A DNA stretch of 20,768 bases from a virus. The position numbers were made by a program, and so were the translations under genes. Under the pieces are notes generated by a model, which saw nothing but the letters and a program-made list of their open reading frames with translations, was not told the DNA's origin and searched no databases. Shown piece by piece: positions 2,176 through 17,232 of the stretch; the stretch's first letter is position 1; every line of letters begins with the position of its first letter. The DNA is taken from the IMG/VR virus record IMGVR_UViG_3300044695_001347, positions 1-20,768 of that record. One strand, 5' to 3'.

Positions 2176-2181
2176 AATATG

Positions 2182-2529: not shown

Positions 2530-2535
2530 ATAAAC

Positions 2536-3095: not shown

Positions 3096-3325
3096 AAGCC
3101 CCGCAAAAATCCTTAAAAAACTGGGGAGACCAGAAATGGCGAACCAAATCAGGTAAGAAATCCTCGGAAACGGGTGAGCGGTACTTGCCAGAAAAGGCTA
3201 TAAAGGCATTAAGCCCTGCGGAGTATGCAGCCACAACCAAGGCTAAACGCGCAGGTAAATCGGCTGGTAAGCAGTTTGTAGCTCAGCCAAAACGTATTGC
3301 AAAGAAAACGGCAGGATATAGATAA
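3092..3325 (+). CDS. Small basic protein, 'KWRTKSGK' family, TTG start
   Basis: 77 residues starting at TTG, which overlaps the upstream stop as TTGA. GGAGG at 3078-3082 lies 9 nt upstream and supports this rare start. The sequence begins SLKNWGDQKWRTKSGKKS, then ERYLPEKAIKALSPAEYAAT and a basic C-terminal stretch (KRAGKSAGKQFVAQPKRIAK). I recall close relatives in cyanophages and nucleo-cytoplasmic large DNA viruses, with no function assigned. It has the look of a small structural or nucleic-acid-binding protein. It ends in a TAATG overlap with the gp4-like gene, placing it in the same transcript as the connector. Confidence 0.6.
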   Translation: MKAPQKSLKNWGDQKWRTKSGKKSSETGERYLPEKAIKALSPAEYAATTKAKRAGKSAGKQFVAQPKRIAKKTAGYR

Positions 3326-4245
3326 TGGCAACATCCGGCACCGCAGGCTTTAATTTAGACCTCTCCGAATTAGTGGAAGAGGCGTTTGAGCGTTGCGGTA
3401 AAGAGCTGCGTACTGGATATGATCTGCGTACAGCACGTCGTAGCATTAACTTATTGACGGTTGAGTGGGCAAACCGTGGCATTAACTTGTGGACAATTGA
3501 ACAAGGTCAAATTCCGATGGTTACAGGGCAGGCAACTTACGCCTTGCCTAATGACACGATTGATCTGTTGGATACGGTTATTCGTACAGGATCTGGGCAA
3601 AATCAGACTGATATCAACATTACCCGTATCTCTGAGTCCACATACATCACCATTCCTAACAAAAACGCACAGGCGCGACCAATTCAAGTTTGGATTAACC
3701 GCCAGTCAGGTAATACAAATGCAAGCGTTACAACGGCTTTAAACGGTGGAATAACGGCAACAGATACAACCATTACTGTGGTGTCGGCGGCAAATCTACC
3801 GAGCCAAGGATATATCAAGGTTGATAACGAAATTATTATGTACCAGAACGTAAGTGGCAACCAACTGTTGAACTGCTTTCGTGGACAGGCTAATACAACG
3901 GCGGTATCGCATTTAACTGCAGCTTCTGTTTATCAAACATTCCCGCCAAACATTAACGTCTGGCCTACACCCAACGCACCGGGCGATCAATATACGTTCA
4001 TTTACTACAGAATGCGCCGTATTCAAGATTCTGGTGGCGGTGTATCTACACAAGATATTCCATTTCGTTTTATCCCGTGTTTGGTTGCTGGACTTGCGTT
4101 TAACCTAAGCGTTAAATTGCCTGATGTACAGCCTGATCGCGTGATGTTTTTAAAACAAGATTACGAGCAACAGTTCCAGTTGGCTGCAGATGAGGATCGT
4201 GAAAAAGCTCCCTTGCGATTTGTGCCTCGCAATATGTTTTATTGA
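3325..4245 (+). CDS. P22 gp4-like head-tail adaptor
   Basis: 306 residues; AGGA at 3313-3316 and a TAATG overlap with the previous gene. The N-terminal region (LSELVEEAFERCGKELRTGY, then INLLTVEWANRGINLWT) has the helix-loop-helix pattern of the P22 gp4 tail accessory factor, which binds under the portal and starts tail assembly. The C-terminal helices (IPCLVAGLAFNLSVKLPDVQ, FLKQDYEQQFQLAADEDRE) also fit. The protein is about twice the length of P22 gp4. Part of the extra length is a 64-residue beta module at residues 139-202 (nt 3739-3930), also present in the gp10-like protein at 14153. The family assignment is by pattern, not by search. Confidence 0.62.
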   Translation: MATSGTAGFNLDLSELVEEAFERCGKELRTGYDLRTARRSINLLTVEWANRGINLWTIEQGQIPMVTGQATYALPNDTIDLLDTVIRTGSGQNQTDINITRISESTYITIPNKNAQARPIQVWINRQSGNTNASVTTALNGGITATDTTITVVSAANLPSQGYIKVDNEIIMYQNVSGNQLLNCFRGQANTTAVSHLTAASVYQTFPPNINVWPTPNAPGDQYTFIYYRMRRIQDSGGGVSTQDIPFRFIPCLVAGLAFNLSVKLPDVQPDRVMFLKQDYEQQFQLAADEDREKAPLRFVPRNMFY

Positions 4246-4253
4246 GGTGAGCG

Positions 4254-4643
4254 ATGCCTAGTCAATTTGCCTCGGGTAAATATGCGATTGCGGAGTGTGA
4301 TCGGTGTGGTCAACGGTTTAAACTCAAAGAGCTTAAGAAATTAGTCATTAAGACACAGATTAAAAACATTTTGGTTTGCCGTGAGTGCTGGGAACCAGAT
4401 CAACCGCAGTTGCAGCTTGGCATGTATCCGGTCAATGATCCACAGGCGCTTAGAAACCCAAGGCCAGATACCAGTTATGTTGTTTCAGGTTTAGATGCAG
4501 ACGGCGATCCGTCTGGTGGTAGCAGAATATTTCAATGGGGTTTTAATCCAGTTGGCGGCGCTAGAGGTTTTAACAGCGGATTAACACCGAATGACTTGAT
4601 TATCCAAGTTGAGCTTGGTACAGTTACAATAGCGGTTACTTAA
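4254..4643 (+). CDS. Four-cysteine zinc-ribbon protein, connector region
   Basis: 129 residues; AGGTGA Shine-Dalgarno sequence. Two CxxC knuckles, C15-DR-C18 and C42-RE-C45, are separated by a basic helix/strand (KLKELKKLVIKTQIKN), the spacing of a zinc ribbon. Next comes the block WEPDQPQLQLGMYPVNDPQA, then NPRPDTS, and a Gly-rich strand-forming C-terminus. I recall this layout in many uncharacterised phage proteins encoded beside head-tail connector genes. Structural zinc binding is likely; its partner is unknown. A virion or assembly role fits the position between the two adaptors, and a regulator role cannot be excluded. Confidence 0.6.
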   Translation: MPSQFASGKYAIAECDRCGQRFKLKELKKLVIKTQIKNILVCRECWEPDQPQLQLGMYPVNDPQALRNPRPDTSYVVSGLDADGDPSGGSRIFQWGFNPVGGARGFNSGLTPNDLIIQVELGTVTIAVT

Positions 4644-4653
4644 GGAGTATCAC

Positions 4654-4845
4654 ATGTTTAAACGTGGCGCAGACGGCGTAGCCAAGAAAGGCAAAACCGA
4701 AGGTAAAAATCTTGGCAACAGTGGCCCAACGGTCGCTGCGTTGTCTGGCAAAGGTACACCTACTTCTAAGGGCGGCAAGACAAATGCTGACATGAAGAAA
4801 ATGGGTCGTGGCTTGGCTAAAATTGCTGCTCAAAAGCGAGGTTGA
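4654..4845 (+). CDS. Small Lys/Gly-rich basic protein
   Basis: 63 residues; TAAGGAG ribosome site overlapping the upstream stop. The composition is dominated by Lys, Gly, Ala and Thr (GVAKKGKTEGKNLGNSG, then KGTPTSKGGKTNADMKKMG) with an amphipathic C-terminal helix (GRGLAKIAAQKRG). No acidic patch, Cys or enzyme motif. It ends RG-stop with the junction CGAGGTTGATATG, the same junction that ends the gene at 1446. It belongs by composition with the basic proteins at 1190-3325 even though two connector genes separate them. Function unknown. Confidence 0.55.
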   Translation: MFKRGADGVAKKGKTEGKNLGNSGPTVAALSGKGTPTSKGGKTNADMKKMGRGLAKIAAQKRG

Positions 4846-4846
4846 T

Positions 4847-5137
4847 ATGGCTAAGTACAGTCAGAAAGTAATGGGTAAAGAGATTGGCGACGCTAAGGTG
4901 TATGCTGAACCCCACACCATGAATGGCAAAAAGTTTGGCGTTGAAACTCATGCAGCAACGATGTCTAAACGTCAAGATCCAAACACAATGGCTGCGAAAG
5001 ACTTTAAAGCCTGTGGCCCTGCTATGCGTGTCAGCACTGGAGATCCAGCCCGTGAAAATGTCAAGACTACCGGCATTAAGATTCGTGGTACAGGCTGCGC
5101 TACGAAGGGTACGATGGCAAGAGGGCCAATGGCATAA
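4847..5137 (+). CDS. Small basic protein with C-terminal GTGCATKG tail
   Basis: 96 residues. I use the ATG at 4847, 5 nt after GAGG (4838-4841); the in-frame extension to 4808 overlaps the previous gene. Layout: MAKYSQKVMGKEIGDAKVYA, then HTMNGKKFGVETHAATMSKR, a Cys-containing stretch (DFKACGPAMRV) and the tail IRGTGCATKGTMARGPMA. The tail echoes the KGTM/KGMM wording of the tails at 2119 and 2473, and similar 'RGTG..TKG..ARGP' endings are, from memory, frequent in small proteins of aquatic phages. Two Cys residues, no membrane segment. It overlaps the next gene by one base (TAATG). Function unknown. Confidence 0.55.
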   Translation: MAKYSQKVMGKEIGDAKVYAEPHTMNGKKFGVETHAATMSKRQDPNTMAAKDFKACGPAMRVSTGDPARENVKTTGIKIRGTGCATKGTMARGPMA

Positions 5138-5811
5138 TGAATTACGCTCAACTCTCCGCAGCTATTACGGCTTATGCAGAAAGCGATGAACAGTTGTTTG
5201 TCGAAAACATTCCTGTATTTGTCGAGCTTGCTGAGCAGCGTATTTATAACTCAGTTCAGCTGTCTTACCTGCGAAAGAACGTTACTGGCAATGCATCGCA
5301 AAACAACAAGTACTTATCTACCCCTTCTGACTTTCTGTCTGTATATTCAGTTGCAGTTATTAAGGCAAACGGCGAGTATGAGTACTTGTTAAACAAAGAT
5401 GTAAACTTTATACGTCAGTCGTATCCCTCTCCCACAGATACAGGATTGCCAAAGTACTATGCTATTTTTGGCCCGACGACGACATCTGATAACCCCCCTG
5501 CGTTGACCAACGAAATTTCTTTAATTCTTGGGCCAACTCCGGACAGCGCGTATTCTATTGAGTTGCATTACTTCTTCTACCCAGAGTCAATCGTGACTGC
5601 TGGAACCACTTGGCTTGGCGATAACTTTGACTCTGCGCTGTTATATGGTGCAATGCGGGAAGCCTGTATATTTCAACGTCAAGAGCCAGATGTCGTAGCA
5701 AATTACGAGCAAAAGTACCAAGAATCAATGATGTTGCTGAAACAACTTGGCGACGGCAAAGAGCGTCAGGATGCCTATCGAAGTGGTCAAGTCCGGTATC
5801 CGGTCCGATGA
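5137..5811 (+). CDS. Second head-tail adaptor (SU10/T7 gp11-like)
   Basis: 224 residues. The N-terminal helices (YAESDEQLFVENIPVFVELA, EQRIYNSVQLSYLRK) precede a beta domain (LSTPSDFLSVYSVAVIKANG) and a closing helix set (FDSALLYGAMREACIFQRQ, VANYEQKYQESMMLLKQLG). This alpha-beta-alpha order, with AEQRI and the late A-L-Y-G-A helix, is typical of short-tailed phage adaptor proteins such as those of SU10 and the T7 gp11 group, which form a ring between portal and nozzle. Together with the gp4-like protein at 3325, the phage would have two adaptor-type proteins. It overlaps both neighbours (TAATG before, ATGA after), so expression is coupled. Family call is by pattern. Confidence 0.58.
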   Translation: MNYAQLSAAITAYAESDEQLFVENIPVFVELAEQRIYNSVQLSYLRKNVTGNASQNNKYLSTPSDFLSVYSVAVIKANGEYEYLLNKDVNFIRQSYPSPTDTGLPKYYAIFGPTTTSDNPPALTNEISLILGPTPDSAYSIELHYFFYPESIVTAGTTWLGDNFDSALLYGAMREACIFQRQEPDVVANYEQKYQESMMLLKQLGDGKERQDAYRSGQVRYPVR

Positions 5812-6461
5812 AACGATTAAACCCTAAAACCGCCGCACCCTTTAAAAAGGGTGACGTTCGAGAGGACGGGTATGTGTTTGGGTATTACCAAAATACAAGA
5901 ATCAAAAAAGATGGTTTTTGTAAAGAAGTTTGGCTTTCTCCAGAAATGTTCGTTAAAGACGTTGAGATGCATAGAGTATTGTCAAAATCCTATTATGCAG
6001 AAAACGCAGATAAAGAGAACGCTAGAGCAGTTGCGTGGAAACAAAAAAATAGAAGCAAAGCAAATGAGCTTAACAGGCAGTCATGGCATAAACACGCTGA
6101 AAGTAATCAAGAAAAATTACGAGCGCGATATGTTGAAAATAAACAATACTATTTAAACCAAGCTTTGTTATGGCAAAAACAAAACCCATCAAAAGTTGCC
6201 GCCAGAACAGCACGTCGTAATTTAGCAAAAATACAACGCACTCCATTATGGTTAACAGAAGACGACCACTGGATGATTGAGCAGGCGTATGAATTGGCTG
6301 CTTTACGTACAAAAATGTTTGGGTTTAGCTGGCATGTTGACCATATAATTCCATTGCGGGGTAAAACTGTTTCAGGACTACATGTGCCGTGCAACCTGCA
6401 AGTGATACCGGGCGTAGAAAATATCCGTAAAAGCAACAGACTTGTGGAGAATATATCTTGA
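5808..6461 (+). CDS. Free-standing HNH endonuclease
   Basis: 217 residues. The C-terminal 45 residues hold the HNH core: WHVDHIIPL (residues 175-183, with D178 and H179), GLHVPCNLQVIP (H192, N196) and N205 with K208 and N210. This is the His-Asn-His metal-binding nuclease fold used by phage homing-type endonucleases. The N-terminal part (residues 1-150) is basic and helical with many Lys, Asn and Gln, probably the DNA-recognition region. The gene overlaps its upstream and downstream neighbours by 4 nt each (ATGA and TTGA). Its codons are clearly more A-rich than those around it (many aaa, aat, gaa), a sign of a recent mobile arrival. It probably nicks or cuts related phage genomes lacking it. 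Confidence 0.87.
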   Translation: MKRLNPKTAAPFKKGDVREDGYVFGYYQNTRIKKDGFCKEVWLSPEMFVKDVEMHRVLSKSYYAENADKENARAVAWKQKNRSKANELNRQSWHKHAESNQEKLRARYVENKQYYLNQALLWQKQNPSKVAARTARRNLAKIQRTPLWLTEDDHWMIEQAYELAALRTKMFGFSWHVDHIIPLRGKTVSGLHVPCNLQVIPGVENIRKSNRLVENIS

Positions 6462-6862
6462 GCTTTACTGGTAATTTCACTTGCAACACTTTTAAGATTG
6501 GTTTAACTGAAGGTCAGTTTGACTTTAGCACTGACACGTTCTATATCGCGTTGTACACCAATGCGGCTACGCTTGACCAAAATACTACTGAGTACACAAC
6601 GACCGGTGAAGTTGTAGCGTCTGGGTATACAGCAGGCGGAGAAGTTTTAACCCCTCTCGTCGGAACAACAGCCGCATATGTGTCGTTTGTGAACGTCTCT
6701 TGGACTGCATCATTTACAGCAAGAGGCGCGTTGATATACAAGGCTGGTGTTAATGGCGCGGTTTGTGTGCTGGATTTTGGCGCTGATCGTACATCCACAG
6801 GGACATTTACAGTTCAGTTTCCGACTGCATCGGCTGACCAAGCGCTAATCAGACTTATTTAA
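6458..6862 (+). CDS. Virion protein, hypothetical, TTG start
   Basis: 134 residues starting MSFTGNFTCNTFKIGLTEGQ at TTG (6458), overlapping the HNH stop as TTGA. GGAG at 6445-6448 lies 9 nt upstream. The sequence is beta-rich with an FKIxL..G.FDFSTDTFYIALYTN opening that I recall in uncharacterised tail-region proteins of phages and prophages. It has a later YTAGGEVL and an RGALIY strand, and ends in QALIRLI. No TM segment or enzyme motif. Its rare TTG start, sitting inside the end of the mobile HNH gene, may reflect that insertion. A part in the tail or in fibre attachment is inferred from its position ahead of the fibre genes. Confidence 0.55.
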   Translation: MSFTGNFTCNTFKIGLTEGQFDFSTDTFYIALYTNAATLDQNTTEYTTTGEVVASGYTAGGEVLTPLVGTTAAYVSFVNVSWTASFTARGALIYKAGVNGAVCVLDFGADRTSTGTFTVQFPTASADQALIRLI

Positions 6863-6871
6863 GGAGTTTTT

Positions 6872-7447
6872 ATGTTGAACCAACATGCAACCATCAACGA
6901 CATTATCTCGTCAACTTTAGAGTCAAACAAGACTACAAAAGAGAGCATGCGGGCAGGTGGTGTATTTCACGTCCAGTGTTTTGATAAAGACGGCAACCTG
7001 AAGTGGGAAGATAAGTCCCATAATCTTGTGGTCAATCAAGGTCTTAAGGACATGAATGACAAGTATTTCTCTGGCACAACTTACACTGCAACATGGTATC
7101 TTGGTCTAATTACAGGCCCCGGTAGCGGTACTACTTTTGCTGCTGGCGACACACTTGCCTCTCATGCTGGTTGGACGGAGTTTACTGACTACTCTGGAAA
7201 CCGTGGCGCGGTTACATTTGGCGCAGCAACAACAGCCGATCCATCTGTTATTACCAACCCGTCCCCAGTTGCTTTCACTATTACAGGTGGTGGCGGCACA
7301 GTGGCAGGCGCGTTTTTAACTAACGTGGCGACTGGTACATCAGGCATTTTGTTCTCTGAGTCTGACTTTCAATCCCCCGGTGATCGAGTAACTGTTGCGG
7401 GCGATGTGTTGAACGTTACATACCAATTCTCGCTTGACGCAGCATAA
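6872..7447 (+). CDS. Tail-region structural protein, hypothetical
   Basis: 191 residues with a strong TAAGGAG site overlapping the upstream stop. After a short N-terminal helix comes GGVFHVQCFDKDGNLKWEDK, then NLVVNQGLKDMNDKYFSG and a Gly/Thr-rich beta region (WYLGLITGPGSG, AGWTEFTDYSGNRGAVTFGA, FTITGGGGTVAGAFL). The protein closes with DVLNVTYQFSLDAA. This order of motifs is familiar from uncharacterised proteins encoded near tail fibres in many proteobacterial phages and prophages. The fold is probably mostly beta. A role as a fibre-attachment or baseplate-like piece is inferred from location only. Confidence 0.58.
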   Translation: MLNQHATINDIISSTLESNKTTKESMRAGGVFHVQCFDKDGNLKWEDKSHNLVVNQGLKDMNDKYFSGTTYTATWYLGLITGPGSGTTFAAGDTLASHAGWTEFTDYSGNRGAVTFGAATTADPSVITNPSPVAFTITGGGGTVAGAFLTNVATGTSGILFSESDFQSPGDRVTVAGDVLNVTYQFSLDAA

Positions 7448-7455
7448 GGACAATC

Positions 7456-7635
7456 ATGGCTACTAAATTTGCAAAAGGTCAGAGCGTTAAGGTTGCGGTT
7501 GCTGTCCCTGAAGGCCCTGTGCAAAAACTACGCATGGATGAGGACGGTAACTTCTTTTATTTGATTCAGTGGGTTGATCTTGCAGGTCAAGCTCAAGAGC
7601 GTTGGTTCGCTGAATCTGATCTGATCGAGGCGTAG
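7456..7635 (+). CDS. 59-residue conserved-type hypothetical protein
   Basis: ATG at 7456 after AAGGA (7446-7450), which overlaps the upstream TAA; stop TAG at 7633-7635. The protein reads MATKFAKGQSVKVAVAVPEG, then PVQKLRMDEDGNFFYLIQW and ends RWFAESDLIEA. The layout (KGQ-VKV start, a DEDG turn, a LIQW strand, a WFAESDL close) resembles a small SH3-like barrel of the kind found in short proteins beside phage fibre genes. It is coherent, starts well, and its stop overlaps the GTG start of the next gene (TAGTG), so it is very likely real despite its size. Function unknown. Confidence 0.62.
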   Translation: MATKFAKGQSVKVAVAVPEGPVQKLRMDEDGNFFYLIQWVDLAGQAQERWFAESDLIEA

Positions 7636-8552
7636 TGTTTGCAGGTGCATCTTTCGCGGCTTTACCCTTCTCCGATGTAAGTGGGGGAACACAGTTTTTT
7701 GTTTCTATTAATGAGTCGGTAGTTGCGGCAGATAGCACATCAGCGCTTGCGCAATTTTTGGTTTCGGTTAATGAGTCAGTTTTAGCAGCAGACCAATCTG
7801 TTGTTGCGGGAAGCCAATTTAATGCTGTCTTGTCTGAGTTTGTTTCAGCCGCAGAGATTGTTTCTTCTAGCCCAATATTTTCTACAGCTGTAAATGAATC
7901 CGCAAGTGTAGCCGAGGTTGTATCTGCCCTCACTAATTTTGGGGTGAGCGTACAAGAAGCAACAGCAGCCCTAAGTTTGGCATCGGCTTCGGCAAGTTTT
8001 GTTGTTACTGTTCTTGAGACAAGCACAGCGACAGACGCAATCACAGCGTTTTATATATTCGCGGTCAATGTTTCAGAGAGTGCCACAGGCGCAGACTCTG
8101 TTGAATCGCAAACTATTATCAGCGGAACCGTAGCGGAATCTGTAGCTAGCACGGACATTTTGTCATCTAGCGTAGTATTTGTGACCAGAGTGTCTGAGTC
8201 AGCAGTCGCGCAAGACTTGGTTAACGCGCAAAGTATTTCTCAAGTAGTTGTACAAGAGTCCGCTACAGGTTCTGCGCAAGCCGCTGCGCAAGCTAATTTT
8301 ACTGCACTGATTACAGAACTTGGTATTGCATCTGACAGTATTTTGGCGCGGTTCTTATGGGAACTTATCAATGACAGTCAGACTGTTGCATGGCAAAATA
8401 TAGGTAGTGACAGTGCAGCGGTTTGGCAGACGATTAATGGCAGTCAGGCGGCTGTGTGGCAAAGCGTTGAAAGTAATAGCCCAACTGCTTGGCAAACAAT
8501 TAACGACTTTGAAGCTACCGACTGGACTCCAGTTGACACTTCTTTGTCGTAA
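7635..8552 (+). CDS. Repeat-built fibre/adhesin-like protein, GTG start
   Basis: 305 residues starting at GTG, overlapping the previous stop as TAGTG; GAGG at 7627-7630 is close (4 nt). After a 22-residue start the protein is eleven repeats of 20 residues (one of 21; residues 23-243) with the pattern xVxxESxxAxDxxxxxxxFx (for example VSINESVVAADSTSALAQFL). Five 11-13-residue repeats with a Trp follow (residues 244-300, for example NGSQAAVWQSV), then DTSLS. No Cys and few charged residues other than the regular Glu and Asp. Regular short beta/helical repeats ahead of two tail fibres suggest an elongated fibre or spacer. Receptor binding is possible. I know no named family. Confidence 0.6.
   Translation: MFAGASFAALPFSDVSGGTQFFVSINESVVAADSTSALAQFLVSVNESVLAADQSVVAGSQFNAVLSEFVSAAEIVSSSPIFSTAVNESASVAEVVSALTNFGVSVQEATAALSLASASASFVVTVLETSTATDAITAFYIFAVNVSESATGADSVESQTIISGTVAESVASTDILSSSVVFVTRVSESAVAQDLVNAQSISQVVVQESATGSAQAAAQANFTALITELGIASDSILARFLWELINDSQTVAWQNIGSDSAAVWQTINGSQAAVWQSVESNSPTAWQTINDFEATDWTPVDTSLS
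7701..8363 (+). repeat. Eleven coding repeats of about 60 nt (20 residues)
   Basis: Eleven consecutive units encode the xVxxESxxAxDxxxxxxxFx pattern. The Glu-Ser at positions 5-6 and the aromatic or hydrophobic residue near position 19 are the most constant. The DNA copies are strongly diverged, so this is old duplication kept at protein level. Confidence 0.8.
8364..8534 (+). repeat. Five coding Trp repeats of about 33 nt (11 residues)
   Basis: Units end in AWQNI, VWQTI, VWQSV, AWQTI and DWTPV, each preceded by a Ser/Asn/Gln-rich stretch. The Trp recurs every 11 residues (12 before the last shift to WTPV is absent), forming a regular aromatic ladder. Confidence 0.8.
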
Positions 8553-8561
8553 GGAACGAAC

Positions 8562-10226
8562 ATGGCACTAGTTGTAAAAGACAGAGTCCGAGTAAATAGC
8601 GTAACTGCCGGTACAGGCACAATTACGCTAGGCGCAGCCCTTACAGGCTATCAAGATTTTTCTGTTATTGGTGACGGGAATACTACGTACTACACAATTG
8701 CTGACCCCGCTACGGGCGACTGGGAAGTAGGTATTGGTACGTATACTGCATCAGGTACAACTCTATCCCGCGACACTATTTTAGAGTCTAGCAATGCTGG
8801 CGCTGCGGTTAACTTTGCCGCTAACCCAAAAGATGTGTTTGTTACGTACCCTGCCGAAAGATCTGTTTACGTTGACGGCTCGACAATTACTCCAGCCACT
8901 GCCGCTACGCTTCCTGTCGTTTCTGGTGGTACGGGCGCTGCCACTTTAACCGGCTACGTAAAAGGTTCTGGAACTTCTGCGCTAACAGCTTCTGCAACAA
9001 TACCAAATACAGACATCACAGGTCTGGGAACAATGTCTACGCAGGCTGCTAACAGCGTAGCAGTGACGGGCGGCTCAATTAACGGCACGACTGTTGGCGC
9101 TACTACAGCAAGTACAGGTGCGTTTACTACCCTCTCCTACACAAGCACGCTAACAGGCGGTACAGGTGTTATTGCAATTGGTACAAATCAAATTTACAAA
9201 GATGCGTCTGGATTTGTAGGTCTTGGCACGGCAACTCCTGCAACCGACTTAGATGTTGTTGGCCCAGCCGGAGTTACGTCATTTACAGGCACAACAAAAC
9301 TTGGCGTAATTGTACGTGGCTCAACGGCTGCTAACGATTACAGCGGAATAGATTTTACGGGTAACAGCCAAACAAATCCAACGGCTAGGATTGGTGTCAT
9401 CACTACGGGTAGCGGATCGTCTATGACTTTCGGCACATCCAATGCTTACGGTTCCGGCATTACTACCGCTGCAATGACCATTAACGATGATGGCATTGTT
9501 GGCGTAGGCACTACAAACCCGACAGACAACGTTGGTTATGGAGCTGCGGTTGATATTCAAGGGTCTTTGGGCGGTGCAGTTTATTTGCGAGATAGAGATA
9601 ACCCTAGTTTATATACTTACTTGTCGTTTACAGGAAGTAACAGCACTACATACATTTGGAACGTAGCAACAGGCCCGATATTGTTTGGAACTAGTGACAC
9701 TGAACGTATGCGTATTTTGTCAGGAGGTGCAGTATCAATCGGTAAAACTGTAGACACCGTTACGGGTGCTGGTCTTGTAAATGATCCATCTGGTTTAATC
9801 AGAATAACCAGAGCAGGAACAACATCCTCCACACAAATGCAGTTTGCGAACAACGGCGGGACACAAGTTGGGTCTATCACAACGTCAGGTTCGGCGACTG
9901 CCTACAATACGTCATCCGATTACCGTTTAAAAGAAAACGTAACACCAATGAAAGGCGCATTGGAAAAGATAGCGGCGTTAAAGCCCGTTACATACACATG
10001 GAAAGTTGACGGTAGTGCGGGTCAAGGCTTCATCGCTCACGAACTTCAAGCGGTAGTGCCTGCCTGCGTAACAGGGATAAAAGATGCTGTAGACGCAAAT
10101 GGAAAGCCGGAATACCAAGGTGTAGATACATCTTACTTGGTTGCAACTCTAGTATCGGCAGTTCAAGAGCAACAAGTTCTTATTGCTAAATTGCAAGCAG
10201 ACGTAGCTGCGTTACAAGGAAACTAA
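8562..10226 (+). CDS. Tail fibre A with self-cleaving Peptidase_S74 chaperone
   Basis: 554 residues; TAAGGA ribosome site. Residues 1-105 form an N-terminal attachment-type domain (VKDRVRVNSVTAGTGTITLG, then WEVGIGTYTASGTTLSRDTI). Residues 105-450 are fibre shaft with short GIVGVGTTNP-type elements. Residues 452-554 are the intramolecular chaperone: S452-D-Y-R-L-K457 is the Ser/Lys dyad spaced five apart, as in the endosialidase chaperone, followed by GALEKIAALKPVTYTW, GFIAHELQAVVP and a C-terminal coiled coil. The domain helps three chains fold together and then cuts itself off before the Ser. Residues 234-320 are closely related to part of the second fibre at 10606. Its function would be host recognition. 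Confidence 0.85.
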   Translation: MALVVKDRVRVNSVTAGTGTITLGAALTGYQDFSVIGDGNTTYYTIADPATGDWEVGIGTYTASGTTLSRDTILESSNAGAAVNFAANPKDVFVTYPAERSVYVDGSTITPATAATLPVVSGGTGAATLTGYVKGSGTSALTASATIPNTDITGLGTMSTQAANSVAVTGGSINGTTVGATTASTGAFTTLSYTSTLTGGTGVIAIGTNQIYKDASGFVGLGTATPATDLDVVGPAGVTSFTGTTKLGVIVRGSTAANDYSGIDFTGNSQTNPTARIGVITTGSGSSMTFGTSNAYGSGITTAAMTINDDGIVGVGTTNPTDNVGYGAAVDIQGSLGGAVYLRDRDNPSLYTYLSFTGSNSTTYIWNVATGPILFGTSDTERMRILSGGAVSIGKTVDTVTGAGLVNDPSGLIRITRAGTTSSTQMQFANNGGTQVGSITTSGSATAYNTSSDYRLKENVTPMKGALEKIAALKPVTYTWKVDGSAGQGFIAHELQAVVPACVTGIKDAVDANGKPEYQGVDTSYLVATLVSAVQEQQVLIAKLQADVAALQGN

Positions 10227-10227
10227 A

Positions 10228-10578
10228 ATGAGCATCATTACTTGGCAAATCGAGCAAATGTCTTGCGCCCCACAGGAAGAAGGTCAGACTGATGTTGTAA
10301 TTTCAGTTGCATGGCGTGTAAACGGCGTTGATGATACGTCTGGAACACCCCTGTATGCCACAGTATACGGTGAGCAATTTCTTAACCCCTACACACCTAG
10401 ATCCCCATTCACACCCTATGCAGACCTCACACTAGAGCAAGTGGTTGGTTGGGTGCAGGACATGATGGGCGCGGAAAAGGTTGCAGCCATTAACGCCAAC
10501 ATTGAACAGCAAATTGAAGATCAGGTAAACCCACCCGTGGTTGCTCCGCCATTGCCTTGGGCAAACCCAAGCATATAA
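10228..10578 (+). CDS. Small protein between fibres (possible DUF7936 type)
   Basis: 116 residues, one base after the fibre stop, with AAGGA at 10216-10220 inside the fibre's last codons. The protein opens SIITWQIEQMSCAPQEEG, has a beta core (TDVVISVAWRVNGVDDTSG, TPLYATVYGEQFL), then YADLTLEQVVGWVQDMMG and a Pro-rich end. Small proteins of this layout (a W-I-E opening, a short beta domain, then LT.EQV.GWV) commonly sit beside tail fibres. I believe the family is catalogued as DUF7936 but could not check this. It may be a fibre assembly helper or a small virion protein. Its final codons hold the promoter candidate and hairpin described separately. Confidence 0.55.
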   Translation: MSIITWQIEQMSCAPQEEGQTDVVISVAWRVNGVDDTSGTPLYATVYGEQFLNPYTPRSPFTPYADLTLEQVVGWVQDMMGAEKVAAINANIEQQIEDQVNPPVVAPPLPWANPSI

Positions 10579-10591
10579 TACATACACTATA
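10552..10591 (+). promoter_or_regulatory. Promoter candidate ahead of second fibre
   Basis: TTGCCT (10552-10557), a 16-nt spacer and a perfect TATAAT (10574-10579) precede the gene at 10606 by about 25-50 nt. The same stretch reads TAATACATACACTATA (10576-10591), similar to the phage T7 promoter core with one base missing between TAATAC and CACTATA. A 6-bp hairpin, CTTGGG-CAAA-CCCAAG (10556-10571), fills the spacer. All this overlaps the end of the upstream gene. It could drive the second fibre separately. Confidence 0.38.
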
Positions 10592-10605
10592 TTTAGGAGT
10601 TTCTT

Positions 10606-12459
10606 ATGCCAAGTACCTATTCACCATCCCTACGAATCGAATTAATCGGTGAGGGAGAGCAGGACGGAATCTGGGGTCAGACTACCAATAGCAACCTTGG
10701 TACGCTGATTGAGCAGGCTATTGTTGGCGTAACTACTGTTGATGTCACCGCTGGAAACGTCACCCTAACATCCTTTAACGGCACGGTTGATGAAGCGCGA
10801 AGCGCAGTGCTAGTTGTTAATGGAACAAATACTGTTGCTCGAAATGTAATTATCCCTAACCAACCGAAGACTTACATTGTTGTTAACAATACAAGCGAGA
10901 ACGTCGGGATTAAAACCAGCAGCGGCACAGCTTTTTTATGCGCGTTTGATACGCAAACGCTTGTGTATTGTGATGGAAGTAACGTTGTAAATGGCCCTGA
11001 ACGTGTTTTTGCAAAAGGCCCAGCGGGCGAAACATCGTTTACTGGTACTGATTTTTTAGGCTTGACTGTCGCAGGTTCTACGTCTGCAACGGACTATAGT
11101 GGTATTGATTTAACAGGAAATAATCAAACAGTCCCAACAGCTAGGATTGCTGTAAAAACAACAGGCACCGGATCACTGTTGCAATTTGGCACTTCAAACT
11201 CCTACGCTTCTGGCATTACAAATACGGCTATGACAATTGACGACGTGGGAAGAGTAGGGATTGGTGATACAACACCAAACTACGCACTTACTGTTGCAAG
11301 CACAGGTTTGGATCATCAGTTATGGGTTAGAAATACAGGCACAAGTGGATCTGATGACGCGATCATTTTGGTGCAGACAAGCGGAACAGGAACAACAGCC
11401 ACTATTTCAGGTTTGTTTTTTGGCGACGGTGATAGCTCATCAAGTGGTCAATTGCGTTACAACCACAACAATGACTCGATGGATTTTTACACCAACTCTA
11501 CAAAGGCTGTTGAAATTAGTAGTGCTGGGGATGTAGGAATTGGTACTTCAACAACGCCTGCCGCAAAGCTGGACATTCGTGATAACTCAAGCGGTACAGC
11601 CCTGCGCATTACACAACTAGGATCAGGCAATGCGTTTTTGGTGGATGACAGCACTAACATAGATGCTACGCCGTTTGTTATTGATGCACTTGGCGATGTA
11701 GGTATTGGCACAACTGCTCCCGCTTACAAGCTTGACCTCCGTGATACTGGCTCTGACATACTTGCACAGTTTGTAAACACCGCAACTACCGCTAGTAACG
11801 ATGCTTACTTACTTATAAAAACCAGCTCTACTGGGACAACAGCAACCACTTCTGGAATTTTATTAGGAGACGGTGCTTCTGACACAGTTGGCTCAATTGA
11901 ATATAGCCACAGTGACGATTCAATGGCTTTTTCCACAGCCGCAGCAGAGCGCGGTCGATTTACATCGACTGGAGAATTTTTAGTTGGAAAGACTGTATCT
12001 ACCGCATCCACTGCTGGAGTAGTAATCGACGATAGCGGTTTAATAAGAATTACTAGAGCGGGTACGGGATCAGAAACGCAGGTTCAATTTAACAACAACA
12101 ATGGTACAACAGTTGGATCAATTAATACATCTGGTTCCTCAACGGTTTACAACACATCTTCAGATTACCGCCTAAAAGATAATGTAGTGCCAATGGTAGG
12201 GGCGCTTGAAAAACTTGCGGCGCTTAAACCATGTACATACACATGGAAAACTGATGGTGCGGCAGGTCAAGGTTTTATTGCCCACGAACTGCAAACCGTT
12301 GTTCCTGAAGCTGTTACAGGTGTAAAAGACGGGGAAGAAATGCAAGGGGTTGATTATAGTAAGCTGACACCAGTGCTTACTGCTGCACTGCAAGAAGCCA
12401 TTGCAGAAATTAAATCCTTACGCCAACGTGTAGCCGCTTTAGAAGAAGTTAAGCCTTAA
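10606..12459 (+). CDS. Tail fibre B with self-cleaving Peptidase_S74 chaperone
   Basis: 617 residues; TTTAGGAG Shine-Dalgarno sequence. Residues 1-135 form an N-terminal domain unlike that of fibre A (YSPSLRIELIGEGEQDGIWG, then NVTLTSFNGTVDEARSAVLV, ARNVIIPNQPKTYIVVNN). Residues 138-224 match fibre A without gaps (60 of 87). Residues 247-314 and 395-463 are an internal duplication, and the shaft carries GDVGIGT elements. Residues 519-617 are the chaperone: S519-D-Y-R-L-K524, then GALEKLAALKPCTYTW, GFIAHELQTVVP and a terminal coiled coil. The different N-terminus but shared middle and end suggest two fibres that bind the tail at different sites, or that arose by shuffling. Confidence 0.85.
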   Translation: MPSTYSPSLRIELIGEGEQDGIWGQTTNSNLGTLIEQAIVGVTTVDVTAGNVTLTSFNGTVDEARSAVLVVNGTNTVARNVIIPNQPKTYIVVNNTSENVGIKTSSGTAFLCAFDTQTLVYCDGSNVVNGPERVFAKGPAGETSFTGTDFLGLTVAGSTSATDYSGIDLTGNNQTVPTARIAVKTTGTGSLLQFGTSNSYASGITNTAMTIDDVGRVGIGDTTPNYALTVASTGLDHQLWVRNTGTSGSDDAIILVQTSGTGTTATISGLFFGDGDSSSSGQLRYNHNNDSMDFYTNSTKAVEISSAGDVGIGTSTTPAAKLDIRDNSSGTALRITQLGSGNAFLVDDSTNIDATPFVIDALGDVGIGTTAPAYKLDLRDTGSDILAQFVNTATTASNDAYLLIKTSSTGTTATTSGILLGDGASDTVGSIEYSHSDDSMAFSTAAAERGRFTSTGEFLVGKTVSTASTAGVVIDDSGLIRITRAGTGSETQVQFNNNNGTTVGSINTSGSSTVYNTSSDYRLKDNVVPMVGALEKLAALKPCTYTWKTDGAAGQGFIAHELQTVVPEAVTGVKDGEEMQGVDYSKLTPVLTAALQEAIAEIKSLRQRVAALEEVKP

Positions 12460-13146
12460 ATGGTTACAGCAAAAAAACCAGTAGCTAAAACCGTTGTTAA
12501 AAAGACAGCGGTTAAACGCGCACCTGTAAAACGAGCCAAGCCCGTCCAAAAGCAGGACATGACGGACAAGATACTTGATCTAATTAAATGGGTAGATAAC
12601 CCTTTCAAACTCGTTTCCGTTATCCTGCTGTCAACCATTTTTTTCTTGGGCTACCTGACTTGGGATAGCCGACAGGTCATTCTGGCGGCGATTAGTAGCA
12701 ACAGTACTATGCCGCAACTCAAGACCCACGAAGAATTATTGCCATTGGCAAACAGGCTGGTCAAAGACATTGGTGCTGTCGGTATCGTGGTAAATAAGGT
12801 CAATTTAACCACCAACAGCCGCACAACCATCTTAGCCATTGCAAACGGTGAGCGTAACCATAAGCTAGAAGGCGTGACCGTATCGCTCTTTAATGAAAGC
12901 CCCGCACGGAATTCTGACGTTGTTTCTATGCTTAACAATGAGATAGCCTGTAAGCCGTTTGAGTCATCAAGTCCTGTTGGTGAGTGGGCAAAGTCGCAAG
13001 GGGTAACGTATATGTGCCGTGGATCAATACCCAACGAAATGGGCAAGTTTGCAGGATACATTGCAGTGGGATTTAAAGCAGAACCACCAGACCTACCTTC
13101 TATTAAAACCCGCATTATTCTAGCCGCATCGGAGATGGACAAATGA
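12460..13146 (+). CDS. Membrane-anchored protein of lysis cassette, H1-like N-tail
   Basis: 228 residues; start directly after the fibre stop (TAAATG), probably by translational coupling, as the Shine-Dalgarno sequence is weak. Residues 1-31 are a repetitive basic tail (KKTAVKRAPVKRAKP; 11 Lys/Arg) like histone H1 or bacterial H1-like tails. Residues 34-50 form an amphipathic segment (TDKILDLIKWVDNPFK), residues 51-68 are a single TM helix (LVSVILLSTIFFLGYLTW), and residues 70-228 are probably a periplasmic domain with two Cys (ACKPF, YMCRG) and an IKTRIILAASEM end. By topology and position ahead of the holin and endolysin it may be a lysis regulator, spanin-like or holin-associated protein; none is proven. 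An internal ATG at 12559 has poor ribosome-site spacing. Confidence 0.55.
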   Translation: MVTAKKPVAKTVVKKTAVKRAPVKRAKPVQKQDMTDKILDLIKWVDNPFKLVSVILLSTIFFLGYLTWDSRQVILAAISSNSTMPQLKTHEELLPLANRLVKDIGAVGIVVNKVNLTTNSRTTILAIANGERNHKLEGVTVSLFNESPARNSDVVSMLNNEIACKPFESSSPVGEWAKSQGVTYMCRGSIPNEMGKFAGYIAVGFKAEPPDLPSIKTRIILAASEMDK

Positions 13147-13229
13147 AAGCAAAATGGGAAGCACTCAAGGCTTGGTGTGATGCCAAGTGGACAGCAATTA
13201 AAATCCGGTTTTCAGGCGTGAGGTTTTAA
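13143..13229 (+). CDS. 28-residue Trp/Lys-rich micro-ORF in lysis cassette
   Basis: ATG overlaps the upstream stop as ATGA, with GGAG at 13131-13134 eight bases ahead; stop TAA at 13227-13229, one base before the holin ATG. The peptide begins MKAKWEALKAWCDAKWTAIK and ends in RFSGVRF. Trp at 5, 11 and 16 with Leu8, Ile19 and Phe23 falls largely on one helical face, with Lys/Arg elsewhere (net charge about +5), as in membrane-active peptides. Its last codons contain GAGG, the ribosome site of the holin. It may be a peptide that acts on membranes, or a leader that couples holin translation. Confidence 0.48.
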   Translation: MKAKWEALKAWCDAKWTAIKIRFSGVRF

Positions 13230-13230
13230 C

Positions 13231-13647
13231 ATGATACCTATCCTAGACATTTTAAACATTGGGTCAAAGATTGTTGATAAGTTCTTTCCCGATCCAGAAC
13301 AAAAAGCCAAGGCGCAACTTGAGCTTATGAAGATGCAGCAAGATGGTGAGCTGCAAAAGATTCAAGCTGACATACAGGGAGAGCAAGAGCTGACCAAGCG
13401 CCATGTGGCGGATATGGCTTCCGACTCGTGGCTGTCAAAAAACATCCGTCCGTTGATGCTGATCTGTTTGTTTTCTGCTTACACGGTGTTCTCCGTTGCC
13501 TCGGTGTTTGATTTTGAAGCAAAGACCGCTTATGTAGAGTTGCTGGGGCAGTGGGGGATGCTAGCTTTTGGATTTTATTTTGGGTCAAGAGGCGCTGAGA
13601 AAATCGCCGAAACCATCGCAAAGGGTAAAGAAAATGGCAGCAAGTAA
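13231..13647 (+). CDS. 3-TM holin family protein
   Basis: 138 residues; GAGG at 13220-13223. The opening ILDILNIGSKIVDKFFPDPE, then KAQLELMKMQQDGELQKIQA and a long charged helix, is the hallmark of the 3TM holin family (PF11351 type), followed by SDSWLSKNIRPLMLICLFSA as the first span, a second hydrophobic stretch (TVFSVASVFDF) and a third (WGMLAFGFYFGSRGAEKIAE). The family forms the membrane lesion that lets endolysin reach the cell wall. The endolysin gene overlaps the last 14 nt. The family match is clear; the number of spans actually inserted is not directly visible. Confidence 0.82.
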   Translation: MIPILDILNIGSKIVDKFFPDPEQKAKAQLELMKMQQDGELQKIQADIQGEQELTKRHVADMASDSWLSKNIRPLMLICLFSAYTVFSVASVFDFEAKTAYVELLGQWGMLAFGFYFGSRGAEKIAETIAKGKENGSK

Positions 13648-14149
13648 TTGGGATAACGCCTTTAAGATGATGCTTGAGTCGGAAGGTGGCTACGTAAATC
13701 ATCCGTCCGACCCGGGTGGTATGACCAATCTTGGCGTTACTAAACGTGTTTGGGAAGAGTGGGTTGGGCGCGAGTCCAACGAGAAAGAGATGCGAGCTTT
13801 AACTCCTGAGCTTGTTGCTCCTTTATATAAGCGTAAGTTCTGGGATGCATGCAAGTGCGATGATCTGCCTACGGGCATTGATTACCTTGTCTTTGACTTT
13901 GCCGTCAACGCTGGCCCCGGTCGATCTGCTAAGATCCTGCAAACCGCTGTTGGTGTCCCCGCTGATGGTGGTATTGGCCCAATTACGCTTGCGGCTGTTA
14001 ATAAAGTAGACCCTGCCGAACTAGTTGAAAAGTTTAGCCAAGCCAAAGAAGACTTCTATCGCAGTTTAAACACCTTTGAAACGTTTGGTAAAGGCTGGCT
14101 TAATCGGGTCGCTGCCGTTAAAATCAAGGCAAATACGCTGCTAGGATAA
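13634..14149 (+). CDS. Endolysin, GH108-type muramidase with PG-binding domain
   Basis: 171 residues from ATG 13634, which overlaps the holin gene by 14 nt and follows AAGGG; an extension to 13568 would run through the holin gene. Residues 5-36 carry the GH108 signature: FKMMLESEGGYVNHPSDPGG then TNLGVT, with E17 of E-G-G-Y as the catalytic Glu. Residues 70-110 hold FWDACKCDDLPTGIDYLVFD and FAVNAGPGRSAKILQ. The C-terminal part (VGVPADGGIGPITLAAVN) is the PG_binding_3-type region. The length is normal for N-acetylmuramidase endolysins of this family. No signal peptide is visible, so the holin would be needed for export. Confidence 0.9.
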   Translation: MAASNWDNAFKMMLESEGGYVNHPSDPGGMTNLGVTKRVWEEWVGRESNEKEMRALTPELVAPLYKRKFWDACKCDDLPTGIDYLVFDFAVNAGPGRSAKILQTAVGVPADGGIGPITLAAVNKVDPAELVEKFSQAKEDFYRSLNTFETFGKGWLNRVAAVKIKANTLLG

Positions 14150-14152
14150 CTT

Positions 14153-16546
14153 ATGGCAATTCAGAAACTAGCGATACAGCCCGGAGTCTACAGAGAAGGC
14201 ACGTCCTACTCGGCGGAAGGTCGCTGGTTTGACTGCGATAAGATCCGTTTCCGTTCTGGGCTTGCTGAAAAGATTGGCGGGTGGATTCGTTCATCAGACA
14301 TGATGTTTGACGGCGTTGCACGTTCTCTTTGGAATTGGGTTAGCTTGGATGGTTCTAACTATTTAGGCGTAGGTACCAACCTTAAGTATTACATAGAGAA
14401 AGGTGGTTTTTACTACGACGTTACGCCCATTCGCAAAGTCGTTAACCCAATGGCGGCAAACCCATTTAAGACCGCATTTAGTACGCTCAATGGCGGCATT
14501 GGTGCAACAGACACAACGATTGTCCTTACAAGCGCAGCAAGTTTCCCAGAAGTTGGCGTTATTAAAATTGACACAGAGCAGATCCTATACAACGGGGTTT
14601 CAGGTAACTCTTTAACGGGCTGTGAGCGCGGGTACAACGGCACTACAGCAGCTGCTCATTTAACAGGTGCTAACGTTGGCTGCTCAACAATTATTGTTAC
14701 TGATAGCGCAAATGGTGCTGGGGTAAATGACTTTGTAACCTTTAGTGGCGCAACAGCTACTGGCGGAATTTCAGCCGACAGTTTAAACGCCGAACAGCAA
14801 GTCTTTAGAATTATTAGTACTAGTAGCTATACGTTTAATATAGACGGCGTTTTCTCTACAAGCGCAGCTACAGGTGGTGGTGCAGCAGTTATTGCCCAGT
14901 ACCAAGTTAATACTGGCCTTGATGTGTACGTGATTGGTACAGGTTGGGGTGCTGGAGCTTGGACTAACCCGTTAAACTTTACGCTTACCAATCCGTTTGA
15001 CACTACTAGCGGTAGCGGGACTATTGTTGTTACGCACACAGCACACGGCTTAACTAACGGTCAATACGCTAGGTTTTCTGGTGCAACGGCTGTTGGTGGA
15101 GTCCCCGCAGCCCTGCTTAATCGCACATACAATGTCACATTTATTAACGCAAACTCTTACTCTATCAGTTTGGGTAATGACGGTTACGGCAACTCCATTA
15201 CAGCCACGTCAACAGCAAATGGCGGAGGGGTTCTTTCCGCAGCTTACCAAACGGGTATTCGTGGTTGGGGCGAGGCTTCTGACACTGGTGGCGTTGGTCA
15301 ACAATTGCGTCTATGGTCTGCGGAAAACTTTGGTCAAAACCTTGTGTTCGCACCTCGTAATGGGGCTGTATATTACTGGGAAGCCGCTGCGGGGATATCT
15401 GCCCGTGGAGAGCTATTAGCCGATGCGGCAACAACAGCGGGGTTTGATGGCGATTTTGTACCAAGGGAAACATTAAAGGTTTCTGCATCATCTATTCAGC
15501 GATTTGTGATTTGTTTTGGCGCAAACTCATACGATCCATCAGATCCAGATACTGTATTTGACCCGATGCTTGTTCGTTGGTCAGACCAAGAAAACCCCTT
15601 TGAGTGGGAGCCAGCTATTACAAACCAAGCTGGTGAGTTTCGTTTGTCGCACGGCTCATCTATTGTGACGTACATTAATACTCGTCAAGAAATTTTAGTG
15701 TGGACTGATTCAGCTCTGTATTCAATGCAATACTTAGGGCCACCGTACGTGTGGGGATTTAATATTCTGATGGATGGCATTTCCATCATGTCTCCCAATG
15801 CTGTAATTACGGTTAGCAATGTTACATACTGGATGGGTGATGGTAAGTTTTATCAATACACTGGTCGGGTAGAAACATTAGCTTGTGCGTTGCGCCAATA
15901 CATTTTTAATGATCTAAACAAAGATCAGGCATATCAAGTCTTTGCTGGTGCAAATGAGGCGTATAACGAGGTATGGTGGTTCTACTGCTCAAACGGGTCA
16001 AATGTAGTCGATAAATATGTGATTTATAACTATTTGGAAAACCTTTGGTACTACGGCACAATGGGGCGCACTGCATGGCTAGATTCAAGCCTACGTCAAT
16101 TCCCACAAGCCGCTGACTACAACTACCGTATTCTTTTCCACGAAGCCAACGTAGATGACGTATCAGGGTTAACCCCAGTACCGATTAACGCACATATTCA
16201 GTCTGCCGACTTTGACGTAGGTGACGGGGATCGTTTTGCGTTTATTTGGCGCATACTGCCTGACATTAACTTTAACGGCTCAAACGTTAACCAACCTAGT
16301 GTCACGATGACGATTAAACCTCGTCGAAATTCCGGTGCGCCATATAGCCCAGCAGACACTCCTACGGTACAGAGCAATGACAACTATAGCTTAACCCGTT
16401 CGTACAACATTCAAGAGTTTGATGGTCAGGTAAATACCAGACTGCGTGGGCGGCAGATGGCACTGCGTATTGAGTCTAATACGCTAGGTGTGGCATGGCA
16501 GCTTGGTAATGTTCGTGCGGACATTAAAGTGGATGGACGTAGGTAA
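14153..16546 (+). CDS. P22 gp10-like tail hub/DNA stabilisation protein
   Basis: 797 residues; AGGA upstream of the ATG. The N-terminus reads WFDCDKIRFRSGLAEKIGGW (residues 25-44), an opening I recall for gp10-like proteins of aquatic phages. Residues 112-175 are the beta module shared with the gene at 3325. Residues about 178-243 and 288-360 are two copies of a FCCH-like domain built around VTFSGATATGG / ARFSGATAVGG. The remainder (FEWEPAITNQAGEFRLSHG, LVWTDSALYSMQYLG, YWMGDGKFYQYTG, YNEVWWFYCS) has the repeated Trp/Tyr strands of a beta-propeller like P22 gp10 or T7 gp12. The protein would form the tail hub/nozzle. It is longer than P22 gp10 (472 residues) by the inserted modules. Confidence 0.65.
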   Translation: MAIQKLAIQPGVYREGTSYSAEGRWFDCDKIRFRSGLAEKIGGWIRSSDMMFDGVARSLWNWVSLDGSNYLGVGTNLKYYIEKGGFYYDVTPIRKVVNPMAANPFKTAFSTLNGGIGATDTTIVLTSAASFPEVGVIKIDTEQILYNGVSGNSLTGCERGYNGTTAAAHLTGANVGCSTIIVTDSANGAGVNDFVTFSGATATGGISADSLNAEQQVFRIISTSSYTFNIDGVFSTSAATGGGAAVIAQYQVNTGLDVYVIGTGWGAGAWTNPLNFTLTNPFDTTSGSGTIVVTHTAHGLTNGQYARFSGATAVGGVPAALLNRTYNVTFINANSYSISLGNDGYGNSITATSTANGGGVLSAAYQTGIRGWGEASDTGGVGQQLRLWSAENFGQNLVFAPRNGAVYYWEAAAGISARGELLADAATTAGFDGDFVPRETLKVSASSIQRFVICFGANSYDPSDPDTVFDPMLVRWSDQENPFEWEPAITNQAGEFRLSHGSSIVTYINTRQEILVWTDSALYSMQYLGPPYVWGFNILMDGISIMSPNAVITVSNVTYWMGDGKFYQYTGRVETLACALRQYIFNDLNKDQAYQVFAGANEAYNEVWWFYCSNGSNVVDKYVIYNYLENLWYYGTMGRTAWLDSSLRQFPQAADYNYRILFHEANVDDVSGLTPVPINAHIQSADFDVGDGDRFAFIWRILPDINFNGSNVNQPSVTMTIKPRRNSGAPYSPADTPTVQSNDNYSLTRSYNIQEFDGQVNTRLRGRQMALRIESNTLGVAWQLGNVRADIKVDGRR

Positions 16547-16551
16547 GCTAA

Positions 16552-17232
16552 ATGGCAACCACACCAAAAGTTATACTACGCCCATCAAAAGCACCAAACT
16601 TGCCGGTTGCGCCAAGCCAGTACGCTTCGCAGTTTCATGAGCAATTTAGCAATGCTTTACGTTTGTATTTTGCTCAGGTTGATAACGTTACTGGCTCAGT
16701 ACTCAGCCCTAATGGTGGGAAGTACTTTGAAAATCCGCACATTGCTGCACGAAAAAACGGTGACTTATATGCGCTTGGTGACAACACACCGACACTCATT
16801 AGTTTTGATACGTTAGATTCAATTTCAGGGTTTACCCTAGATCCTTCGGGGTATGCAACGGCGAATCAAAACGGTGTGTACAAGATTGATTTCAGCTTGC
16901 AATTTGCTAACACAGACAACGTACAACATGATGCTTTTGTGTGGTTGCAGACCAACGGTACGGTAGTACCCGGATCATCGAGCCGTTTTACCATCCCCGC
17001 CAGAAAAAGTGCGGGTGTTTTTGGTTACGTTGTTGGGTACTCGTCACTTACATTTGAAATACAAAAAGATGATGAAATTCGTTTATGGTGGGCAACTGAG
17101 ATAGCTGCTACGTCTGGTGGGACTTTGGGCGTCTTTATGGATTCCCTTGCTGCACAGACTTCTCCCTACGTCAGACCCGCCAACCCTTCCGCAGTGGGTA
17201 GCATAGTCTTTGTGTCTAGGCTACCCGCATGA
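16552..17232 (+). CDS. Tail protein with possible C1q/TNF-like knob
   Basis: 226 residues; AGGTAAG upstream. Residues 1-50 are an N-terminal arm with a short helix (YASQFHEQFSNALRLYFAQV). Residues 65-226 form a beta-rich domain: YATANQNGVYKIDFSLQFAN, then HDAFVWLQTNGTVVPGSSS, SRFTIPARKSAG and LTFEIQKDDEIRLWWATEI. The strand order 'G.Y.I.FS....N', 'W...NG..V..S', 'I....G' and 'DEI.L.W' resembles C1q/TNF-like jelly rolls. Its place right after the gp10-like gene is where P22-type phages put the tail needle, and some needles (phage Sf6) end in such a knob. Alternatively it is a short receptor-binding fibre. Confidence 0.5.
   Translation: MATTPKVILRPSKAPNLPVAPSQYASQFHEQFSNALRLYFAQVDNVTGSVLSPNGGKYFENPHIAARKNGDLYALGDNTPTLISFDTLDSISGFTLDPSGYATANQNGVYKIDFSLQFANTDNVQHDAFVWLQTNGTVVPGSSSRFTIPARKSAGVFGYVVGYSSLTFEIQKDDEIRLWWATEIAATSGGTLGVFMDSLAAQTSPYVRPANPSAVGSIVFVSRLPA

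Follow-up and report, generated by a model that had tools for sequence, protein, structure and literature searches.

In podovirus tails the adaptor and the nozzle are neighbours, by analogy with phage SU10 (PMC9509320). The SU10 nozzle has four domains placed between propeller blades 2 and 3, and in the SU10 and T7 adaptors a beta part is the dock for fibres (PMC9509320). Small barrels are described elsewhere in phage tails: in the JBD30 hub, domain VI forms a small barrel of six strands, which projects from domain V, touches domain VII and gives the baseplate stability (PMC11445458), and the insertion in the LKA1 tailspike gp49 is a six-stranded barrel with DALI likeness to P22 coat residues 222-345 and V-ATPase residues 1-75 (PMC5701251). 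Fragments common to otherwise unrelated phage proteins are themselves an established form of domain mosaicism (Smug et al. 2023, PMC10684548). Here we describe a 64-residue module that occurs twice in IMG/VR virus record IMGVR_UViG_3300044695_001347, a 20,768-base stretch of DNA that we call the window, once in a gp4-like adaptor and once in a gp10-like nozzle. We consider it probable that the module is a self-contained small beta-barrel and represents one sequence family among the exchangeable insertion domains that tubular machines carry.

Module 1 (nucleotides 3739-3930) encodes residues 139-202 of the 306-residue gp4-like protein (3325..4245, plus strand), and module 2 (14486-14677) encodes residues 112-175 of the 797-residue gp10-like protein (14153..16546, plus strand). 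The original prediction, that these two connector proteins share a gap-free stretch with 38 of 64 residues identical, is borne out by translation, by shuffling and by blastp. Smith-Waterman comparison of the whole proteins scores 204, whereas 1000 shuffles average 42 and never exceed 79, and blastp returns an E value of 1e-20. The alignment extends weakly for 20 residues upstream (gp4-like 119-202 with gp10-like 92-175, 50% of 84); the rest of the two proteins is without a match (next-best E 0.57), and the window holds no third copy of the module. Chance resemblance is ruled out by the shuffles together with decoy frames, 0 of 24160 shuffled or reversed frames falling below E 0.1. Both modules open with LNGGI.ATDTTI. 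Their DNA agrees at 97 of 192 bases and the same codon is used at 11 of the 38 identical residues; with so few common bases and codons, their common ancestry is old, the two having parted long ago.

By its predicted structure, the gp4-like protein is a podovirus adaptor of the T7 gp11 or SU10 type. The predicted core superposes on T7 gp11 (7box_N, Z 10.3), on tail tubular protein A (TTPA) of KP32 (5mu4_C, Z 8.6, 96 residues, 3.0 A) and on the SU10 adaptor (7z4f_H, Z 7.6), and the protein also matches the Pfam model PF24175 (SU10_adaptor) above its cut-off (37.4 bits, cut-off 27). A PDB search with the gp4 core gave no match, and NCBIfam has no model for gp4 or gp10. Within the model, module 1 is set into the loop of a beta-hairpin. 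The hairpin is part of the beta region that the adaptor helices flank, and this region corresponds to the fibre dock of the SU10, T7 and KP32 adaptors. This likeness is at the level of the fold, the loop residues not being matched one to one; because the gp4 core profile gave no match when compared directly with the SU10 adaptor, it is the fold that places the insertion at the dock. A second protein of the PF24175 family is encoded at 5137-5811 (74.9 bits), so that one phage has two adaptor-like proteins, perhaps two rings.

The gp10-like protein is a podovirus nozzle, of the kind represented by P22 gp10, T7 gp12 and SU10 gp17, with the propeller-platform fold over its whole length. It superposes on the nozzles of Pa223 (Z 23.0, 442 residues), VP1 (22.1), SU10 (20.0) and P22 (gp10, 19.6), matches phrog_3287 with an E value of 3.6e-71, and has sequence matches in the PDB (9nwi_Y and 8zkk_O). 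The gp10 core profile covers residues 2-98 and 381-798 of the open frame. Between these parts lies a putative accessory insert (residues 99-380; 14447..15292, plus strand), which holds module 2 and two further repeats. The first of these, an E1_FCCH-like repeat (residues 192-244; 14726..14884, plus strand), adjoins module 2 and reaches 18.2 bits with PF16190, below the cut-off of 29.5. The second is a repeat-like domain (residues 276-364; 14978..15244, plus strand) that matches phrog_28581 with an E value of 0.00047. Module 2 would thus open an insert of about 280 residues that appears colinear with the nozzle domains of SU10. The very weak scores tell against this placement: the colinear matches between the gp10-like protein and SU10 gp17, at 74-106 and 711-819, are weak. 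Both nozzles carry accessory domains in the propeller, in a colinear place, but the four domains of SU10 gp17 are Ig-like, whereas here there are one barrel and E1_FCCH-like repeats. The two module hosts were called unrelated from the outset, and the assignments agree with this: one is an adaptor and the other a nozzle, no other part of them matches, and the names gp4-like and gp10-like are right.

Relatives of both hosts exist with and without the module. In samples picked by likeness to the query (the best 80 of about 600 candidates each, so that the counts are not frequencies), the module is present in 79 of 144 distinct gp4 relatives and in 23 of 75 gp10 rows, the near-copies L120 and L121 both being counted. 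It is cleanly absent from the remaining 65 gp4 relatives and 52 gp10 rows. We therefore reject the module as a part of either core fold; its distribution is independent, as had been proposed, and neither fold appears to need it. Module-free gp4 relatives run from ...VW.NRQSG... through a short linker to ...INVWPTP.... At least 6 state changes are needed to explain the pattern on the core tree of gp4 and at least 4 on that of gp10; if only well-supported branches are counted, 1 and 3 changes remain necessary, respectively. The site of insertion varies as well: the module of the L254 gp10 lies at residues 264-329, a third site, rather than around 112-183, and the gp10 proteins of L344 and L349 have three copies each.

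Comparison of the module with its hosts, a check that had been proposed, shows that divergence of the module follows that of the core, but faster. Among gp4 proteins (63 rows), mean identity is 0.56 for the module and 0.73 for the core (r 0.50, Mantel 0/999); among gp10 proteins (22 rows), it is 0.64 and 0.73 (r 0.60, Mantel 0/999). Because module divergence tracks the core and yet outpaces it, we favour a history in which the gains are old and the module was afterwards inherited along with the host gene, and lost in some cases. A tree of the modules themselves (77 modules after merging of duplicates and thinning of the gp4 rows from 76 to 41; 66 columns) has little resolution. In it the gp4 copies cluster, 38 of 41 at a support of 99/88 and all 41 at 89/28, and the gp10 copies share a pool with modules of a Pelagibacter phage tail tube B, of a neck protein, of a fibre and of the product of the gene that follows gp10. 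Copies from baseplate and central-fibre proteins belong to this pool as well. The suggestion that the module has spread by recombination therefore stands for an old spread among proteins; the codons speak against it as a recent exchange between these two genes. That the module is an exchangeable insertion domain is, in our assessment, very likely.

A search for the module in other phage proteins found it in many kinds of tail protein. Searching 50,697 GenBank phage records with the gp4 module yielded 72 records at E <= 1e-3, all of them Synechococcus, Prochlorococcus or Pelagibacter phages or entries that bear the name cyanophage; the gp10-type module yielded 64 records, which also include Roseobacter and Oceanospirillum phages. 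Named hosts include tail tube B of Pelagibacter phages, where the module spans residues 519-583 in phage Skadi, and, in cyanophages, the baseplate wedge subunit, gp15, the neck protein and the tail sheath. Among metagenomic viruses, the hosts include phrog_376 tail proteins, a central-tail-fibre-J protein (behind Phage-tail_3), an amidase-like protein and more. The S-WAM1 sheath (L243:3096-5987) has two modules in a row, and its best relatives, such as that of S-RIM2, align in two pieces over 83%, as if without modules. In several relatives of the window (L121, L129, L134, L139, L109 and L256), the gene behind gp10 also bears a module; its counterpart in the window (16552-17232) bears none and weakly resembles BclA_C (18.8 bits, cut-off 38).

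Database families capture the module in part. Used alone against PHROGs at E <= 0.01, it matches phrog_4406 and phrog_2885 with 42 of 42 members each and phrog_11439 with 41 of 42. No Pfam model above cut-off was seen for it in the tests made, one of which was a listing without cut-offs. PF23666 (Rcc01698_C) stays below its cut-off (13.3 bits against 27, for the L093 module), is touched by 8 of 42 members with a best E of 0.011, and has no match in the window record. A scan of genome contigs with the L093 module found no relative. Like the fragments of Smug et al. 2023 (PMC10684548), the module is common to unrelated phage proteins; in the part of that work available to us, neither the module nor its spread over adaptor, nozzle, sheath and hook is named. 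Our search of the open-licence PMC literature found no paper naming the module family, its placement in adaptor or nozzle, or its occurrence in FlgE or FlgK. Domain sharing among phage proteins is thus known, and what is added here is one nameless 64-residue family across many tail proteins and the flagellar hook. It offers a handle for annotating many entries now called 'virion structural protein'.

The flagellar occurrence emerged when bacterial genomes were searched with the module of the Pelagibacter phage. This search gave 19 loci, 16 of them representing one gene, nearly all in records named SAR116 or Alphaproteobacteria. The one of the 16 that we tested (L393:701-5824) is FlgE by Pfam (FlgE_D2 8.8e-17, Flg_bbr_C and Flg_bb_rod), a giant form of about 1,700 residues with three modules; the other 15 (L392, L394-L405, L407 and L409) match its ends, the N-terminal part in 14 of 15 and the C-terminal part in 15 of 15. 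By eye, the genes adjoining FlgE read as flgF, flgG and flgH. The same genome encodes a FlgK of 2,469 residues with three modules in a row (L410:2136-9545, minus strand; FlgK_D1 1.2e-44) and a 451-residue frame with one module and no Pfam match. SAR116 module proteins beyond FlgE and FlgK, the 451-residue one among them, are found at L411:438-1793 and L412:319-1707 and in frames of about 980 and 2,375-2,475 residues.

Of 58 genomes from the taxonomic family to which this bacterium belongs, 45 match; in 37 the E value is below 2e-18 and the frame is 963-1,747 residues long (not each a confirmed FlgE). Among 289 genomes drawn from the class, the sole match was that genome itself. This narrow range within the class, set beside the wide range in phages, favours transfer from phage to bacterium. 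We lean towards a single small-barrel family that passed between phage virion tubes and SAR116 flagella (FlgE and FlgK), most likely from the phages, and that serves as a tube-surface module in both. The case would give phage-flagella exchange in marine bacteria a concrete example.

We examined the fold of the module in AlphaFold2 models of each protein alone, built from alignments of 87 (gp4) and 59 (gp10) natural sequences. Predicted local distance difference test (pLDDT) values are 89-94 over gp4 residues 131-210, against a whole-model mean of 75, and 89-93 over gp10 residues 111-180, against a mean of 71. The module is compact, beta and of high confidence in both models, with seven short strands in the same pattern at an offset of about 27 residues; both copies are accordingly described as beta-barrel-like insertions.

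Superposition of the module from the predicted gp4 model places it on the hub chains of phages Chi (8vjh_A, 74 residues, 2.0 A, Z 9.3) and JBD30 (8rk3_b, 74 residues, 2.3 A, Z 9.2, 22% identity), on a VP1 capsid chain (82 residues, 3.4 A, Z 10.2) and, more weakly, on the N-terminal barrels of F1-ATPase (Z 6.4-6.8, 2.3-2.7 A). Judging by protein length, 8rk3_b (727 residues) should be the JBD30 hub gp53 (735 residues). When seven tail proteins of JBD30 and Chi were searched, with filters off, with the hidden Markov model (HMM) of the module, the top ranks were held by JBD30 gp53 (497-553, 15.3 bits) and Chi gp30 (536-569 and 946-982, 10.9 and 5.3 bits). The gp53 segment and the first gp30 segment lie within those superposed, 479-641 in gp53 and 456-578 in gp30. 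Three residues stand out in the family: E31 and R48 are nearly invariant across the module sets, and H58 is present in 76 of 76 gp4 and 23 of 23 gp10 copies. All three are kept in gp53 497-553 and gp30 536-569. The likeness to gp53, probably to its domain VI, and to the gp30 segment thus comprises about 74 superposable residues and the pattern E, then RG, then H; there the barrel is part of the hub, whereas in the adaptor and the nozzle it is present in some relatives and absent from others.

Several results weigh against kinship with these hubs. The Z values near 9 are modestly above the background of 7-8 of which the tool warns; hhalign of the modules with the hub segments gives weak probabilities of 16% and 67%; and single-sequence and profile PDB searches with the module found no chain at E <= 10, the likeness being too low for a PDB-wide sequence match. 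H58, moreover, is missing from P-HM2 gp15 and from 16 of the 39 FlgE copies that reach that column. Given the hhalign values and the PDB searches, membership in the same family as the hub barrel is likely, not established.

The alternative is that the module, the hub barrels, the LKA1 insertion and the F1-ATPase barrels converged on a common small barrel. That F1-ATPase barrels superpose too, and that no PDB-wide sequence match exists, would fit such convergence. The LKA1 insertion is also a small barrel interrupting a larger fold (PMC5701251), but here it superposes only loosely (4ru4_B, 9.0 A) and its likeness comes without a sequence match. For JBD30 and Chi, by contrast, the sequence match and the superposition were obtained independently and coincide in position, and E, R and H are conserved there. 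We accordingly regard convergence as possible but the less likely account.

What the module does may be suggested by where it sits. One copy would occupy a hairpin loop of the portal adaptor, where adaptors of the T7 and SU10 type dock their fibres, and the other the start of the nozzle accessory insert, where SU10 carries its nozzle domains. Both copies probably point outwards, and of the earlier suggestion of a surface decoration we retain the decoration as the likely reading. An exposed barrel could touch other proteins at the periphery, and so either steady an adjacent one or keep a fibre or spike in place. Such a role would be analogous to that of the small barrel in the JBD30 hub; it would not be ring-to-ring binding, nor would the core fold need it. 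We put a contact or docking role of this peripheral kind at about even odds. The presence and absence of the module among relatives provide a natural series for asking what accessory domains of adaptors and nozzles do.

The main rival to a contact role is glycan binding, in which the module would decorate the particle and aid its adhesion to the cell surface. A hub domain of RcGTA was named oligosaccharide-binding after the six-stranded barrel inserted in the LKA1 tailspike (PMC7296036, PMC5701251), and the R4C paper describes several carbohydrate-binding accessories (PMC10276861). The K1-lyase rider model PF24149 is touched by 4 of 42 members (best E 0.0066), several of the proteins that carry the module belong to tail tips or fibres, and its sequence changes faster than the core. 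E, R and H, however, vary little between phage adaptors, sheaths and the hook proteins of bacteria, and such constancy is easier to reconcile with a structural network than with a receptor site that varies. Glycan binding therefore seems to us a tentative alternative, on the doubtful side.

The original prediction also proposed that the two copies might touch and so join the adaptor ring to the nozzle ring. We searched 50 whole records with profiles for the module, for module-free gp4 and for the C-terminal part of gp10; 37 had both genes, and the other 13, without one gene, were excluded. Both modules are present in 5 of the 37 records (in one of these, gp4 is cut by the contig end), the gp4 module only in 20, the gp10 module only in 3, and neither in 9. 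Adding the window, which has both, and six loci with neither (L120, L121, L136, L165, L167 and L170) gives 6, 20, 3 and 15 and shows no association (Fisher p = 0.72); the records are related to one another, so this p value is descriptive only, and the point is that both single-module classes exist.

Sequence likeness within a phage could be assessed for five pairs, G028 being left out because its gp4 module is not under that name in the merged set. The phage's own gp10 module ranks 1, 20, 13, 18 and 13 of 23 for likeness to its gp4 module, so that in 4 of the 5 pairs modules from the same phage are no more alike than modules from different phages. The window's own pair, at rank 1 the most alike of the 23, speaks for a contact, as does the position of adaptor and nozzle as neighbours. 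In SU10, however, the adaptor-nozzle contact is described as made by platform and helix-bundle domains (PMC9509320). Because both single-module classes exist and likeness within a phage is generally lacking, an obligate contact between the modules is very unlikely; we reject it, and the joining of the two rings by touching modules is not borne out.

We also reject the idea that one of gp4 and gp10 recently gained the module from the other, by gene conversion or duplication within this phage lineage. The common opening and the first rank of the window's pair might be cited for it, but it is very improbable: only 11 of 38 identical residues have the same codon, and in the module tree gp4 modules cluster apart from gp10 modules.

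The window has several other features. Two fibre-like proteins (8562-10226 and 10606-12459) have the same C-terminal S74 chaperone and share blocks at 69-70% DNA identity. Several small Lys/Gly-rich proteins are encoded at 1687-3325, and a 61-base direct repeat (87%; 2116-2176 and 2470-2530) lies at the ends of two of them. Directly behind the second adaptor gene, a frame at 5808-6461 is HNH endonuclease-like by eye and has no Pfam match. Finally, a 305-residue protein at 7635-8552, likewise without a Pfam match, consists of degenerate VSES-type repeats.

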